This document shows, in pieces, positions 1,772 through 35,136 of a DNA stretch of 64,000 nucleotides. A program made the position numbers and the translations under genes. Within the stretch, counting starts at the first letter, position 1, and each line of letters begins with the position of its first letter. The notes beneath the pieces were generated by a model. It ran no database searches and was not told the origin of the DNA. It worked only from the letters and a program-made list of their open reading frames with translations. The DNA comes from Fragilariopsis cylindrus CCMP1102 (taxonomy: Eukaryota; Bacillariophyta; Bacillariophyceae; Bacillariales; Bacillariaceae), in NCBI GenBank assembly GCA_900095095.1, contig FMBT01000299.1:496001-560000 (forward strand), written 5' to 3'.

Positions 1772-2902
1772 ATGAGGTTTTCAATCGCTCTACTATTACT
1801 ACTTGCAACATCCGTAAGGGAGGAAATACAACATGTCGATGGATTTTCTATTTCTTCTTCTACCAGCATTGATTTCAGAAGAAGAAACCGTTCAGTACAC
1901 CAGCTGAGAAGTAGTAGTGATGTTGATAATGAAGTAGTTGCTATCGACGATGATGCGGATGATTGCGGTTGCGGTGACACTACTGGTGACCGTACTACTA
2001 CAATTTTTTCCGGTAAGCCATCAAATACAGCTAAAAAATTGAATCCAAGACAAGCGATTCGTAACGGTTCAATATATAATTTATATGGTGAGGAAGTTAC
2101 AATGGATAAGATACTTGTAAGAAATAATAACAGCAACAATAATAATAATAATAATGTATCAATTGTTGTTTTCTTACGATCATTGGGATGACCCTTATGT
2201 CAAGAATTTATTCTTCAATGGAGTAAACGAAAAGGTGAACTTGATAATAATAAATTGGGAAGTACACAATTAATTTTTGTATCAATTGGTACACCAGAAA
2301 CTGGTTTAAAGTTAGTTGATCATTTAAATATACCAAATCTAATTGATTATTTATATGTCGATCCAACAACTACACTATATAATTCCCTACAATTGAATAA
2401 AGGAATCAAAGAAACATTTTTTTCACTAAGTACATCATTTGCTTTTTTAAAACGATTCACTAAACCTGACGGTATGAAAGAATTGAATGAAATTCTACCC
2501 AAATGGAATAAAGGTAAGTTTAAAAAGGAAGGAGGAGGTATTTATATTGTGCCGTTTTTTATATTTTTTCGAGGGTAACTTTAAAAGAGAAAGTTAACTA
2601 CCACACTTTATTCGTCGGTCGTTGTAACTAAATCCCTTTATTCGTATTTCCTCCCTGCCGTTCCACTAAAAAAACAAAAACAAAAAAACGTTTTATACGT
2701 ATATACGTATATATATATATATATATATTTCTCAGCCAGTTACATGGTACCAAAGCCGGATCAAGCATTCAACCAAGGCGCAACGTTTGTATTTGATGGT
2801 GAGAAAACTATCTTTGCTCACTACGATGAAAGTACAGGAGCTCATAGTGACATACAACAAGTAATTGACTTGACCAAGGATAGGTTGAATTTGGATGCTT
2901 AA
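1772..2902 (+). CDS. SelU/PRXL2-like thioredoxin-fold protein, candidate selenoprotein
   Basis: Exon 1 is 1772..2513 and exon 2 is 2736..2902; the intron has GTAAGT and CTCAG borders and joins in phase 1. The start MRFSIALLLLLATSV gives a signal peptide followed by VDGFSIS, so plastid targeting is possible. An in-frame TGA lies at 2189-2191. The same frame continues for over 100 codons to the splice donor, and exon 2 joins in frame with the conserved family ending (GATFVFDGEKTIFAHYDES). Around the TGA the protein reads VVFLRSLG-U-PLCQEFILQW, so the TGA falls on the first residue of the Cys-x-x-Cys-like redox motif of the PRXL2/AhpC-TSA family. That family includes the known selenoprotein SelU, whose U-x-x-C motif matches. 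Reading TGA as selenocysteine is therefore the best explanation. I could not find a convincing SECIS element in the 3' region. The alternative is a nonsense mutation. Confidence 0.75.
2709..2728. repeat. (TA)n microsatellite in an intron
   Basis: Uninterrupted TA dinucleotides just upstream of the 3' splice site of the SelU-like gene. Confidence 0.9.
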
Positions 2903-3797
2903 AACAAAAAAATCTACTTATCTAGTTGGCTGGCACTAGTAGTAGTATTTATTTATAATTGGAACAAACATCATTATCAACATCGATAAGTTTAGTGTTG
3001 TACTATATAAGTCCGAATGACGCCAGTATTAATATACACAAAGAACAAGAAAAAAATCTGCCTTCTTTCTCTCTTTGAGGAAAGAAGCAGAATGGGATTG
3101 TTCAGCTGGTTGATATGGAAATATAAAGATCACTCTTTTTTTGTTTTTGTTTTCTACGTTTGTTTTGTTTGATTAAAGTGGATGGTTTTTTTGAGATCGA
3201 TATTTATTCAAACAACAAGTGGCTTCTCTTTGTCATATTCTTGAATACAAAAAATAATAATACAAAGTTACTGCATTATTATTTTTGTCTGTAATAGTTA
3301 ATGATAGAACAAGTTGTTACCACATGTTTTCTTCTTTTTTTAGCAGATCATATAAATATAAATATACATCTTAATCATTCTCTCAATTACATCATTGGTA
3401 CTCTACAGTACATCATATTACAGTTGCTTTCGTTTCATTTTATCTCTATATCTAAGTTGTGTCAGTTTAATAGTAGTATATTGTATTATATAATATTATT
3501 ATGAATGAAGTACCGGTGAATACCGTCAGTACGTAAGGGGAGTACTACATTAGTGCTGTAATTCCAGAAAAGAAGAAAAAGCAAGGAGGGGAATTCGGGG
3601 TTTTATTCGGGGGAGAAAATATTTTCATGACTTGAGTTGATCGATCGAGTCGAACAAAATTTACCGATTTACTAAAACTTCCGCGTCTCGGAATCATCTA
3701 ACGTTTACAAAGGGTCTAATACAACTAACGTCGCATATTTAATTAAATAACTCCAATAAAATTTTCCTAAAAAAATAATCCACCCCCAACTTTAAAA
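2903..3797. other. Intergenic region and 3' UTR of the SelU-like gene
   Basis: 895 bases between the SelU-like gene and eL22. It includes the 3' UTR where a SECIS element would be expected. A strong hairpin lies at 3058-3090 (CTGcCTTCTTTC paired with GAAAGAAGCAG), but it lacks the AUGA/GA core and apical AA of a SECIS. The last 200 bases should hold the eL22 promoter. No gene is visible. Confidence 0.5.
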
Positions 3798-4445
3798 ATG
3801 GTAAGAGATCTTCAACGAGAAATGATCCGCCTTCCTGATCTAAAAGTGCTCGCATGAGCCGACAGATCAGGGGCCTTAACATGTCGATTGACCGATGAAT
3901 TACGCTGATGTCTGGGGCATTTCATTATCTTCCGATTTTGAACGATGATACGCGGAAACATTTATGTCGTCTTCGAATTGTTTTGGTGGGTTGCCTACCA
4001 ACGTTTCGCCTCATAATGATGCAGCCACGGTATGTTCACCAATGCTCACCCTTGTCGCTTTTTTCAACTTCTTGTATCATACTGATTTTAGGTAAAAGCA
4101 AAGAAATCGACTGTCAAGTTCGTCATCGACTGTACGCAGCCTGTAGACGATAAAGTCCTTGATGTTGCGCAGTTCGAAAAATACCTTCACGACAAAATTA
4201 AGATTGGAGGCAAAACCGGTTCATTAGCTTCTAGTAATGTTGTTATCTCAAGAGATCGCACAAAGTTGACCATTGCGAGCCCAGCCGATCTGAAATTCAG
4301 CAAAAGACAGTTAAAATATCTTTCAAAACGTTACTTGAAGAAACAGCAACTTCGGGACTACCTTCGTGTTGTTGCTGCTAGCAAGAACTCATACGAAATG
4401 AGATATTTCTCTATCAGTGGAGGAGATGACGAAGACGAAGAGTAA
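3798..4445 (+). CDS. RPL22: 60S ribosomal protein eL22
   Basis: Component of the large cytosolic ribosomal subunit. The coding part of exon 1 is only the start codon, 3798..3800. The intron 3801..4091 begins directly after ATG (ATG|GTAAGA) and ends TTTTAG, and exon 2 is 4092..4445. The joined protein starts MVKAKKSTVKFVIDCTQPVD and has 118 residues, the normal size for eL22. Family hallmarks are KFSKRQLKYLSKRYLKK in the centre, LRDYLRVVA after it, and an acidic tail GGDDEDEE. The start is fixed by homology: without the one-codon exon the protein would lack its Met. It is convergent with the next gene. Confidence 0.93.
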
Positions 4446-6502: not shown

Positions 6503-7433
6503 ATTCTTATTTGTTTATTCGTTAGCACTTATTGATCCAGCGATAATCTACCAGCTAGTAATCTAAACAGACATGTAAATTTGCATGTACTGTAGGAATG
6601 CACATGCGCATGCACATGTACATTTACATGTACATGTGCATGCACATGTAGCACACGAAGTTGCACGTCATTGGATTGGCAAAAGTAAGACGCAAAGTGT
6701 ACAAACAAAGGCGGGTTTATTATATATAATTTTACTTGCTGTTTGTGTATTTTAAAAAATGAGGTTTAAAGTGATCATACTGTCAGATCTTGTCCGCGAA
6801 TAACACCGCCAAAGGCTTTTAGTCCTTCTACAATACAACTGTCAAACGATAGCGCGCGGTAAAATTAGCGCTGACTAATACTTGTACGTAATGCGTGATT
6901 ATCGTAATACGTTGGCAAAGAGGGAGTGACAGTTAGAGAGAGAGAGAAAAAAAGAAAGAGTATTTACCGTACCCGCGGGGAGATCTTGACTTTCCCACGA
7001 AGTATGTAACTTTTGGCGAAAGAAAATTCTTTTGCGAATACGAGTCAGTCGCAGTTTCACGTTGAAAAAGTATGAGAAATGTTCATATCAATGTCAGTAT
7101 GTAAGCTTAAAATCGCAGAAATACATTGGATCGCTTTTGACAGTGAGCGTATATTGGAAAATACTTAAAAACAAAGAATATGAACGTTTACGAATGTGAG
7201 TCCTATCGCCACTTCGATCTCTCTCTCATCGTCGCCAAATGGAAGTTTCGCTCACAAAATCGGACTCTAAAGATAATTTCTTGTTGTGGGCGTTTTCTAC
7301 GGAATGCTGTTGACATAAAACAAATCTACACTTCACTTTTTGTCCCATACATACAACGATTAAGTTTTGCAAAGTGAAAACGAAAGTCAACATAAGTTAT
7401 TTTACTGTCGTGTTACAAAAATAAATAATTAAG
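6503..7433. other. Divergent intergenic region
   Basis: 931 bases between divergent genes. It holds the CATG-rich inverted repeat at 6608-6643, a GA-rich tract near 6930-6960 and GAGTCAGTC at 7042-7050. No gene is visible. Confidence 0.5.
6608..6643. repeat. Inverted repeat, 16-bp arms, in alternating Pu/Py DNA
   Basis: Arms 6608-6623 (GCATGCACATGTACAT) and 6628-6643 are perfect reverse complements around a 4-nt TTAC loop. The surrounding 6597-6649 is almost strictly alternating purine-pyrimidine, so it could form a cruciform or Z-DNA. Confidence 0.9.
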
Positions 7434-10400
7434 ATGAAGTTGTCTTTGATCGGCATTTCACTTGCATTGCATGCACTGATATTAATAGCGATAGCTCAAG
7501 ATGGAGATACTATTGCTCGTAAAACACAAGAAGATGAGGAAAAGCTTGATGGGTTCTGGACTGCATTCATCGATGATGTAGACTCTTTCCCAAGTGCTGC
7601 ACCATCTCCTGCACCATCTCCTGGCCCTTCTCCTGGCCCATCTCCTGAACCGTCTCCTGAACCGTCTCCTGAACCATCTCCTGGACCATCTCCTGCACCA
7701 TCTCCTGGTCCTACTCCTGGTCCTACTCCTGGTCCTACCCTGCCACCTACCCTGCCACCTACCCTGCCACCTTCTCCTGGCCCTACTCCTGAACCTACTC
7801 CTGGTCCTACTCCTGGTCCTACCCTGCCACCTACCCTGCCACCTACCCTGCCACCTACTCCTGGCCCTACTCCTGCACCTACACCTGGTCCTACTCCTGC
7901 ACCTTCCGCGTCACCTTCTCTTACGCCAACTGGAACGTGTGATATCGATACTTGTGTGAATTGTACTGCGATTATCGGTGGTGCCGAAGTCAATTGTGAA
8001 GATATTGTTCCCGAGCAAAAAAGTGCATGTGAATGTCCGGAATGTGTTCGAAATCTTGTTTTTGTATACACCGGCAAGAATTGTCCAGTAAATCAAGCCG
8101 GATCTGGTCAGTGTGTAGATTTTGGACCTAATCCATTCGTTGCTGGTTACAGAATTACCAATGCTAATGACGAAACTGAAGTTCTTGGTACTGGTACAGT
8201 GCAGCAAGGTGATGAAGTGACAATCAACGCAGTAGGTTTAACCGGATGTATTCCTGATATGCTTGCTGTTACAATTTCAGTGCCCACTGGTGCTCAGACT
8301 CAATCTTTCATTATTGATTCTACCTGTGATGGTGGTCGTGGATTGATTTTGACAGAAAGCTATGGTGCCTTTGAATCCATTGGTTACAGCTGTAGTGATT
8401 TTGATGTTCATAATTGTTTAACGGAAGTTAGTTACGGTCTTAAGGTCTGTAACACTGGTCCGACATTTGAAACAATCTATGATTGGTTCCTAACGGCAAA
8501 TGATGATTTTTGTGATCTTCTCGAAGATGTGAACCCCGAAGATGTTATGCTTGGTCCAGGTGAATGCTATTATGACACTAAACCGTATGTCGTCGATAGA
8601 TGCCAGAGCTCTATGTATTGCGTCAATGTAACTGCCAACGCAACCAACCCACTTACAGGTATTCCTAAAAATTGTCCAGATACCGATGAGATCAAGTTTA
8701 ACTGGACTCAAGTCCCAACTCTTCCACCTACCCCAGAACCAAGGTATGTACATATTTCATCTTTCTTTTTGGATATAAATTTAAATTTTCGAATGCTTCC
8801 TTACAAATTCTATACTTTGCATTTTCTTCAACAGCCCTCCCCCAAGTCCACAACCATCGCCAAGTCCTACCTCCACGTGTATCATTGATATTGAGCTCAC
8901 GGGTTGTCCCAAGTACAACATTTCTCTTGATAACGATTGCCAAGGCCGTCCATGGGAGATTACTTTCCGATACAATGGGGGTAACTGTGCCCAGTCTGAC
9001 AACCTCCAGCCTCGTCAAAAGTTCTCTTGTACTGATACAGGTAGCGGTCCTCCTACCGCTCTTGGTGCTCAAAGTTACATCACCGCTACTCCTCGTGGAG
9101 GAAGTGATCTTTACTTTGCAGGTCCTGTGAAGGTTGGAGAGAAGTACACCTTAAATGCCGACAGACAATTTGACAAGCTTTCTGCTGATATGACCCTCTC
9201 CATCTTCGACTCCCAAGGAGGAAATGCTCTCCAAGTAACCGATGTGCATTTGTCTTGTTCGCAACCATTGTTCCTCTTCGATAAGTTTGGAGCAAGTCAA
9301 GTTACTGAGTGGGTTGAAACATCTGGTCGTGTCGTTACCGACACACAAACCGGTGTCGAAACGGGAACGATTGAAGTTGGTTTGGCTACAGACAACCAGC
9401 AGAAGCCAGTTCGTCTCTTAGAAATGACCGTCCTTACCAACACACAAGATCAACCTATTGATTATACTTCCCAGGTTGCAGGCCAAGTCTTACAACCGGG
9501 ATCTAGTATTGAGCTTCCTGGTTTCGAAATTGACATCGAGCTAGGTCAACAAGTTCGATACACATTCTTCACAACAATTATTGGCGAAACTCTTGATGGA
9601 ACCAATATGTGTAACGGTAACGACATGCTTGAATGTATCGTTGGTTTCAACCTCAATCCTGTTTTCCCTACCATGGTTCCAACTCCTAGTCCAACCCTTA
9701 CTCCTCGCCCTAGTAGCAACTCTGCTGTTACTACTTGTAATGTTGGATCTCAGATTTCATGTGCCGTCACCAATCCACCAGGTATATTTACATGCGACTC
9801 TCTTCAGGCTCCTATCTCAGAAAGCTGTCCCGCTGATGCTGAGCTTTTGAGAGCCTTCCTTAAAAATACAGGGACTGCAAGCGTCTTCCTTATAATTGAC
9901 TGTGACAAGAGTGAATACGTTGCTCAACTAGTTGAACCTGGTCAACTTGCCCAGTTAAATACGCGTGCTAGTGACGTCTGTGAGGAAGCCACGGCAACTG
10001 TTTATGACTCAGATCCTCTCGATGGTGGTTCTAGCATTGGATCTTCACAACTCCAAATTGCATGTCCTGGACCTTGGACGCTTGGAGCCACAATCGCTCC
10101 AGGATTTGTCCTAGAGTCGTACGTAAGTACTTTTGACAACGGTGGAACCTTCGACTTTAACATTGCCGAAGTTGAAATTGAAATTAACTTCATTGGACAG
10201 AACTCAGGGTCTGTTCCCCTTACTATCAGTGATGGTACAATTACTTCCCCCCTCGGTTCGGGACCTGTCACTGGACTACCAACAAATATCGCAGTTAGAA
10301 ACCAACAAATTCTCCAGACACAGATTGGAACTATTGAATTAAGTGGTAAAGATGGACAGGCATTGACCTTCATTCAGAGTCTTAATGGTGTGGGGGGCGT

Positions 10401-10443
10401 CGGTACTTGTGAAGGTACCTCTGAGCTTGTAATCAATCTTTAA
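7434..10443 (+). CDS. Large secreted Pro-rich multi-domain protein
   Basis: Exon 1 is 7434..8743 and exon 2 is 8835..10443; the intron has GTATGT and ACAG borders. The protein has 972 residues. A signal peptide ([21 protein letters not shown]) is followed by a Pro-rich stalk of PSPx[10 protein letters not shown] and LPPT units at about residues 55-160. Next come Cys-rich beta-type domains that look like copies of one fold: residues 160-430, then about 480-680, then about 700-970, separated by short linkers rich in Pro, Ser and Thr. Shared elements are a [LI]xFxYxGxxC strand near the domain start and, in the second, [19 protein letters not shown]. There is no C-terminal membrane segment, so it is probably secreted or held in the cell wall or mucilage. 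No enzyme motif is seen and the function is unknown; cell-surface or frustule-associated structure is an inference. Confidence 0.82.
7594..7930 (+). repeat. Coding minisatellite for Pro-rich stalk
   Basis: Tandem 6-12-nt units (CCATCTCCTGCA, CCTACTCCTGGT, CTGCCACCTACC) encode PSPx, PTPG and LPPT repeats of the secreted protein. Near-identical blocks recur, which fits expansion by slippage or unequal exchange. Confidence 0.9.
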
Positions 10444-33391: not shown

Positions 33392-35136
33392 TTATAGTTT
33401 AGGTCGCCACCAGTTCAGAATTTCGCTACCCTCAGTCGTATTTTCTTCTAAAATCATGTTCACCAAATTGTCTCCAAATAGTCCATGATAAAGAAGCCCT
33501 CTACCACTCAGACCAGTAAAAATCCACGAATTAGGATGATGTCGGCAGTCTTTTAATTTACCAACGATGGGAAGTCTTCCGTAGGGTCCTCTATTACTTT
33601 GCACTCTAGTTGCACTGGTAATTCGATCTATCGTCCCATTATCCCATACTCCTGACGCAAAGTGATATGATCTCGTCTTAAGCTCATCTTCAACTTCATT
33701 AGGCGTCATCGGTTCTTCCTTAAACTCGTGAGTTGAACCAATCAGCACACGATTTTTTTCTATCATAGGAGATACGTATTTTCCACATATGATTGCATTC
33801 CATAATATTTTATCATCGTCATCATCACCGTCGTTCATCGTCATTTCTATAGATTGACCTCCCACCAGGTGAATCGGAAATTCCTCTTTTTCCAGAAGTG
33901 ATGATGTTTGGAACAATCCAGACCCTGCAGCAAATATCACAGTGTCGAAATCTTTAAGTCGTTCTTCCCATTCAATATTGTTATTGCTGGTACCGATGTC
34001 TTCTTTTTCTACTTGTTCGGGAAGAGTAATCCATTCTTTGGTACCAGTACCTATCGATTGACAGGATGACCATAATCCTTTCATATAGCTCTTCATGTGT
34101 AGAACTTTACAGTCCCCAGATAGTTTGAGAGCTCCCAATACATCATTCGATTCACTGGCAAAATATTCTTTTTCCCAGGCATCTAGTTCTTCCTTGTTAT
34201 CATCATCATTATCATCAGCAGAGCTGCTGCTGTTGGAGGATGGTTGGTCCAACCAGGTTGCGAATTCAGGCAACTGATTAGCTGTCGTTTGAAATTTTGT
34301 CACCTGGTCTTCGTTCATTGCAATGCGATATATTTTATTTCGCAATACAACATCATTTTCAAACTCACATGCAGCATTAACAAGTTTGTTTGCTAATGCA
34401 AGGCCTTCAAGTCCATTCCAGGCAAGTTTCCCTCGAGGATTCAAGGGGTGTAATAGACTGTAAATAAAAAGAGAATATAATAATGAATATGATAGGTAGG
34501 GGAGGTGAAAGTCAAGAAAAGGTTAGTTTCATATATTTTGTATTGATATTATGTTTATGTATGATTTTTTTCTTCTTGGTTCGTTTAGTTAGTTGTTACA
34601 TATATTCTCAGCGATCTTGGTGATATATAAACTGTCGTCATTAGCTTTATGATGTTAAACTAGATCAAGAGTAGCAAATAATATATTCTTCATAGAATGG
34701 ATGTAACAAAACAGCAACTCAAAAACAAGTGATTTTTGTCCTCTAGCAGATCGTGCGAATATGAATGACGAAGAAAAACTTACCCTCCAGCAACTGCAGA
34801 AGCACCACCTATACCAGGTGTAGGATACTGATCGAAGATAGTAATATCTGTTGAAGGATTTTTCTCTAACAGATGATAAGCAGTTGATAGTCCTGCTAAA
34901 CCACCACCAATGATCCCAACACGATGACTATTAAGAATAATGTGATGATGATTTTGTCGTCGTTGTTGTGTACCATACATATAATTATAATGATGATATG
35001 GTTTATTTCGAAGAAATATTCTCTTATCCATCAATAAAGCAACCACCATCGTCGGGGACTTGGTTCCTACTCTATTATTATCATATGCAAGAAGAAAGCA
35101 TATAACACATAGAAACCGGAGAAGAATAAATACCAT
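33392..35136 (-). CDS. FAD-dependent oxidoreductase, DAO family
   Basis: Exon 1 is 35136..34784 and exon 2 is 34457..33392; the 326-nt intron has GTAAG and TACAG borders. A hydrophobic N-terminus (MVFILLRFLCVICFLLAY) suggests a signal peptide or anchor. The FAD-binding Rossmann motif is RVGIIGGGLAGLSTAYHLLE with the acidic end of strand 2 in ITIFDQ. The join gives GASAVAGGLLHPLNPRGKLA, a signature shared with plant and cyanobacterial DAO proteins and with the C-terminal oxidase part of MnmC. The C-terminal flavin-binding part is SWIFTGLSGRGLLYHGLFGD. The substrate is not known; amine or amino-acid oxidation is the family-level inference. Confidence 0.85.

Follow-up and report, generated by a model that had tools for sequence, protein, structure and literature searches.

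The window, i.e. the whole 64-kb stretch of DNA analysed here, codes for L22e, Rpb2 and myosin as well as for SNW/SKIP and a squalene/phytoene synthase domain (Pfam), a gene set with introns that fits a eukaryote, most probably an alga and presumably a diatom. The subject of this study is a two-exon gene on its forward strand. Exon 1 (1772-2513) starts with the ATG at 1772 and comprises codons 1-247 plus one base, as supported by the spliced translation and by a match to the Pfam domain AhpC-TSA_2. The following intron of 222 nt (2514-2735, GTAAGT...CTCAG, phase 1) is predicted from the sequence, because without this joining the downstream frame and the C-terminus of the family would be lost. 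Exon 2 (2736-2902) encodes the family's C-terminal segment and ends with a TAA stop codon. Spliced translation joins the two exons in frame to 909 nt, corresponding to 303 codons and 302 residues, and this frame contains no stops other than codon 140 (TGA, 2189-2191) and the terminal TAA. The original prediction, according to which the TGA lies in an unbroken frame on both sides and no frameshift is involved, is borne out. Codon 140 represents the first position of a (C/U)xxC redox motif, UPLC if the TGA is read as selenocysteine (Sec) as in our best explanation, whereas the TGT at 2198-2200 (codon 143) provides its second Cys according to the spliced translation and the alignment. A hidden intron around the TGA was considered and rejected, since the motif is contiguous in those relatives that have it. 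Ordinary gene calling would probably end the gene at codon 139. At its N-terminus (1772-1860, forward strand), the protein begins with a signal peptide-like segment followed by a Phe start (MRFSIALLLLLATSV..VDGFSIS), which presumably resembles the pattern of complex-plastid-targeted proteins.

Judged by its sequence, the protein is a member of the AhpC-TSA_2/PRXL2 (SelU) family. The Pfam model PF13911 (AhpC-TSA_2) matched residues 153-280 with an E-value of 2.6e-12 and 47.5 bits compared to a cut-off of 27 when codon 140 was entered as X. We take SelU to be the family named PRXL2 or AhpC-TSA_2 elsewhere. The match runs across the splice up to residue 280, so the proposal that the downstream exon joins in frame and carries the C-terminal signature of the family holds true. 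Furthermore, the part of exon 2 beginning with QAFNQGATFVFDGEKTIFAHYDES... resembles the GDGFQMPGIFLI..G.I...H segment of bacterial relatives, a likeness found by reading, as the alignment is restricted to exon 1. Among the NCBIfam models, the sole match up to an E-value of 1 was the SelL-related redox model NF040769, whose score increased from 33.6 bits with X at codon 140 to 42.1 bits with Cys. All scores obtained with this model (33.6-43.2 bits) stay below its curated cut-off of 120, which places the protein outside the SelL-related subfamily. Searches for relatives in viral contigs (173 stretches and a further 26) found none, and no match at an E-value of 0.01 was obtained in plasmids and phages.

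More distant relationships became visible with a profile. A phmmer search of the PDB with the single protein did not retrieve the human structure 9us9 at an E-value of 1, and its only two matches (E-values of 0.1 and 0.11) were taken as chance. The profile built from 26 relatives and exon 1, in contrast, matched two PDB sequences below 1e-5, 9us9 (1.1e-12) and 9usa (3.2e-8). The entry 9us9 represents the human prostamide/prostaglandin F synthase, and its match covers profile positions 13-168 with the TGA column aligned to the first Cys of LRRFGCVVCR. In 9usa, a variant of 9us9, the sequence has Ser in place of the two motif cysteines. The corresponding gene name is presumably PRXL2B in both cases. 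Three weaker profile matches with E-values of 0.004-0.007 belong to the thiol-disulfide proteins YkuV and ResA. An AlphaFold2 model of the exon 1 residues reached a mean pLDDT of 73.1 and a pTM of 0.69, with residues 121-139 below 50, and places the residue of codon 140 (model position 48) between the strand 37-43 and the helix 49-67. Foldseek searches with this exon 1 model gave mostly peroxiredoxins as best matches; these were modest (best E-value approximately 1.1e-3, TM approximately 0.4), none was at or below 0.001, and 9us9 appeared at rank 14.

The original prediction had placed the TGA, in the context FLRSLG-U-PLC, at the first redox Cys of the family, and this assignment is confirmed by the Cys aligned at this column in the relatives as well as in human 9us9. 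In a further test of the SelL-related model with a shorter domain, Cys at the TGA position scored 43.2 bits, while Ser (35.4), Gly (35.2), Trp (34.6), Leu (34.3) and Arg (34.1) remained lower, i.e. Cys has an advantage of 7.8-9.1 bits over the five other residues that are one base away from TGA. Relatives were collected with the pattern VVFLR[SHN][LF]GC, which was run over bacterial and archaeal genomes and yielded 75 stretches, 27 of them relatives (L001-L027). After omission of L008, which is nearly identical to L009, all 26 motif-found proteins aligned with exon 1 carry Cys at the TGA column, a residue built in by the pattern. Besides the TGA column, this alignment is invariant at VVFLR, at the G, at the second Cys and at one Tyr; the latter two residues are the only invariant ones that the pattern does not impose. 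Because the pattern contains the Cys, relatives were also fetched with the Pfam model, which begins a few residues past the redox motif as judged from its match on the protein of the window. It gave matches in four of five genomes of motif-found loci and in two phylum samples, the first with 72 matching genomes out of 118 and the second with 30 out of 115, from which at most 30 loci were taken per sample. In total, 93 loci were searched with a profile in which both motif-Cys columns had been masked. Sixteen rows came from the Pfam-fetched relatives (L066 twice), showing Cys in the TGA column in 11 cases, a gap in five and never another residue. Four of the 11 Cys rows (L029-L032) are by their coordinates motif-found genes, which leaves seven obtained independently of the pattern; among these seven, L081 and L086 resemble peroxiredoxin-like proteins of a more generic kind. 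According to these alignments, the TGA codon sits on the catalytic, i.e. the first redox, Cys of the family.

If this TGA is decoded as Sec, a SECIS would be expected in the 3' UTR. The next gene on the same strand codes for the ribosomal protein L22e, which limits the room for the 3' UTR to approximately 2903-3796. This L22e gene lies directly downstream (3798-4445, forward strand, Pfam E-value of 1.4e-41), and its sequence suggests that the first coding exon consists of the ATG only (3798-3800), followed by an intron (GTAAGA..TTTTAG) and a second exon from 4092. Visual inspection of the UTR and its subsequent folding drew our attention to a stem-loop at approximately 3003-3128 on the forward strand, which is found in the minimum free energy (MFE) fold, by a scanner with shuffled controls and in a fold with enforced core. 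Its core lies 115 nt past the stop codon and places AAUGAC (3016-3021; unpaired adenines, then UGAC) opposite UGAU (3111-3114, seen by the scanner and the enforced-core fold) between two helices. Helix I is formed by UAUA..UCCG with UGGA..UAUA plus two outer pairs, while in helix II the 5' arm GCCAGU (3022-3027) pairs with GCUGGU (3105-3110). Above helix II, the enforced-core fold shows a one-sided apical bulge of 15 nt on the 5' side (AUUAAUAUACACAAA, 3028-3042), and a long apical mini-stem (3043-3103) follows in the folds, consisting of GAACAA/UUGUUC and UCUGC-UUCUUUC/GAAAGAA-GCAGA. Within the bulge, AA occurs 10 nt after AUGA and is followed by U, giving AAU instead of AAR, and AAA(G) stands at +19 directly before the mini-stem. 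The AA-to-GA distance amounts to 79 nt compared to 15-39 nt in the SECISearch rule. The candidate is therefore atypical in its helix II of only six pairs, its long mini-stem and the displaced AAR motif.

The unconstrained MFE fold of 2996-3135 has -33.3 kcal/mol (z -2.84; one of 200 shuffles as stable) and reproduces both helix I and helix II with the two strands of the core facing each other, although three Watson-Crick pairs take the place of the quartet within the core. The SECIS quartet is not scored by energy models. A fold with an open core is less stable by 1.3 kcal/mol (-31.6 vs. -32.9 kcal/mol). Among 39 sliding segments of the UTR, the two lowest z values, -3.08 (2963-3092) and -3.03 (3003-3132), belong to segments that overlap the candidate, and 2903-3500 folded as a whole showed no excess stability (z -0.23). 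However, z values of -2.8 or lower were also found in four of 160 samples taken across the window, so stability alone is weak evidence.

The geometry was searched with a strict scanner ([AG]TGA followed after 9-13 nt by AA or CC, a helix II with six or more pairs, NGAT, a helix I with four or more pairs), the settings of which had been chosen after the candidate had been seen. The site at 3003-3128 is its only match on both strands of the 64 kb. Shuffled UTRs gave a strict match in none of 400 cases in one run and in 10 of 3000 in another, and on bacterial loci six matches were counted in 640 kb of strand sequence. With four looser settings, 22, 30, 186 and 370 of 3000 shuffles matched, and 2, 3, 12 and 30 matches occurred on both strands of the window. 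When UGAU as core strand and three helix II pairs were required in the enforced-core fold, one candidate was left. In contrast, when the spacing of the SECISearch rule was widened slightly, a scan gave eight spaced candidates, none of which passed the fold test, and Rfam returned no SECIS match for the gene region, the element (both up to an E-value of 10) or the window (at gathering level). The SECIS search suggested for 2903-3900, which we ran on 2903-3796, was successful in so far as one candidate with core geometry exists on the right strand, but this candidate is atypical and not recognised by Rfam. On balance, the element at 3003-3128 is probably the SECIS of the SelU-like gene, and the form described here is tentative.

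Altogether, the proposal that the TGA is read as Sec in a SelU/PRXL2-like protein receives good computational support, as the analysis agrees with it on the family, on the position of the TGA and on the exons, and a SECIS candidate was found in addition. We assume with a probability of approximately 75% that the gene encodes a Sec-containing, peroxiredoxin-like SelU in the nuclear genome of an alga, probably of a diatom, in which UGA-140 is decoded via a SECIS at approximately 3003-3128 and the UxxC motif has a redox role. In this scenario, SBP2 would bind to the type-II-like SECIS in the 3' UTR and recruit Sec-tRNA and eEFSec, which would insert Sec at UGA codon 140 of the spliced transcript. 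Sec-140 could then act together with Cys-143 as a UxxC redox pair where the first long helix of the fold begins, and this pair may serve thiol- or peroxide-dependent redox chemistry. Sec decoding of the TGA as such, whatever the SECIS, can be regarded as very probable. The most likely rival explanation retains Sec at the TGA, but places the working SECIS elsewhere in the transcript or assumes an unrecognised form of it. The deviations of the 3003-3128 stem-loop in helix II, AAR motif and spacing and its missing Rfam match speak for such another element. Nevertheless, we consider it rather unlikely, since with three helix II pairs still demanded beside the core, the last base of the core left free and spans of 35-140 nt allowed, the enforced-core fold of 2903-3796 gave four core pairings, of which two passed, and the runner-up (3191/3306, -20.6 kcal/mol) is 11 kcal/mol weaker than the main candidate.

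The remaining explanations do without Sec. A base error in sequencing or assembly could have turned a TGT or TGC codon, each of which is one base from TGA, into the stop, so that the locus would encode an ordinary Cys-containing PRXL2 protein; the relatives with a residue at this column all carry Cys, which was imposed by the pattern in the motif-found set. However, 38 other sense codons of the coding sequence (the terminal TAA left out) are equally one step away from TGA, thus a random single-base change would strike the redox-Cys codon in approximately one of 39 cases if mutation types are not weighted. This agrees with the original prediction that a random mutation would hardly hit exactly this codon. 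Moreover, the UTR harbours the only strict SECIS-like match of the window, which would be needless for a Cys gene, and SelU selenoproteins have already been described in algae; hence we regard a base error as improbable. The same calculation affects the assumption of a decaying gene, in which a genuine nonsense mutation would affect either a pseudogene or a single allele. Such decay would explain an in-frame stop that precedes most of the domain, and the atypical SECIS candidate fits to it as well. Against it stand the 303 codons free of frameshifts and other internal stops, the plausible splice sites, the family signature preserved beyond the TGA and the location of this TGA on the redox-Cys codon. 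The absence of any other lesion makes decay still less likely than the calculation implies, and we see very little chance for it. Least probable of all is readthrough or recoding of TGA independent of Sec, either as general readthrough or as a genome-wide reassignment to Trp or Cys, and none of our observations points to it. Sixteen of the 20 ORFs tested contain Pfam domains inside standard-code open frames, on the basis of which a genome-wide change of the TGA code was rejected. The long standard-code frames include a myosin of 1078 codons and two Rpb2 pieces of 606 and 607 codons. Furthermore, TGA terminates seven of the 18 ORF frames examined, some of these ends perhaps being intronic, and Trp at codon 140 scores like the other non-Cys residues.

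A Sec-containing SelU fits well into what has been reported on algae. In the diatom Thalassiosira pseudonana, two SelU selenoproteins were reported (PMC2375036), and according to another survey, SELENOU belongs to the four Sec proteins with the widest distribution across 36 algal genomes, and diatoms possess 20 to 44 selenoprotein genes each (PMC7539508). By its domain, our gene belongs to the same family as the T. pseudonana pair, with which it would also share the TGA in place of the redox Cys and an element in the 3' UTR, here a candidate; it differs in an N-terminal extension that contains acidic and Asn-rich stretches and in the atypical SECIS candidate. Human prostamide/prostaglandin F synthase (9us9) is linked to it by the profile match that aligns the TGA column with the first Cys of GCVVC, but the human enzyme has Cys instead of Sec and was found by the profile only and not by the single-protein search. 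A third comparison concerns the bacterial SelL-related proteins (NF040769) and the motif-found relatives L001-L027 from Saprospiraceae, Planctomycetes and others, which have the FLRxxGCxxC motif and the domain order in common with our protein; in contrast to it, they are Cys forms, and it scores below the 120-bit cut-off. Since Sec-containing SelU proteins were already reported in T. pseudonana and are widespread among the algal genomes surveyed, the gene probably represents a further SelU selenoprotein, and the novelty that is left concerns the form of the candidate SECIS.

SECIS with a long mini-stem have been described in Ostreococcus, for some Chlamydomonas SECIS and for one from Dictyostelium (PMC2375036). 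Compared by this description to the Ostreococcus and Chlamydomonas elements, the candidate has the quartet core and the long apical mini-stem in common, whereas it shows an A instead of a G before the core, a short helix II and a displaced AAR motif. It might represent a SECIS variant with a minimal helix II of six pairs, a one-sided, adenine-bearing bulge of 15 nt and a mini-stem of approximately 60 nt, which is undescribed in the literature consulted; we regard this suggestion as tentative and rather doubtful. If it were true, the variant would be missed by the SECISearch spacing and by Rfam, with the consequence that selenoproteins of this lineage with such elements would be undercounted, and a real element of this kind would help to widen the search pattern for algal selenoproteins. 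The gene thus adds a computationally well-supported Sec-containing SelU with its gene structure and a SECIS candidate, while the picture of the SelU family is unchanged by it.

Some additional observations refer to the remaining window. ARAGORN detected no tRNA gene within the 64 kb. The only Rfam match at gathering level is a C/D-box snoRNA of the SNORD24 family on the reverse strand (34604-34698, 46.4 bits), which adjoins an FAD oxidoreductase ORF on the same strand (33392-34522). At 7425-10443 on the forward strand, DUF7467 is matched by each of two ORFs that overlap in different frames (E-values of 2.6e-6 and 5.7e-40), an arrangement that may reflect tandem copies, an intron or a frameshift.
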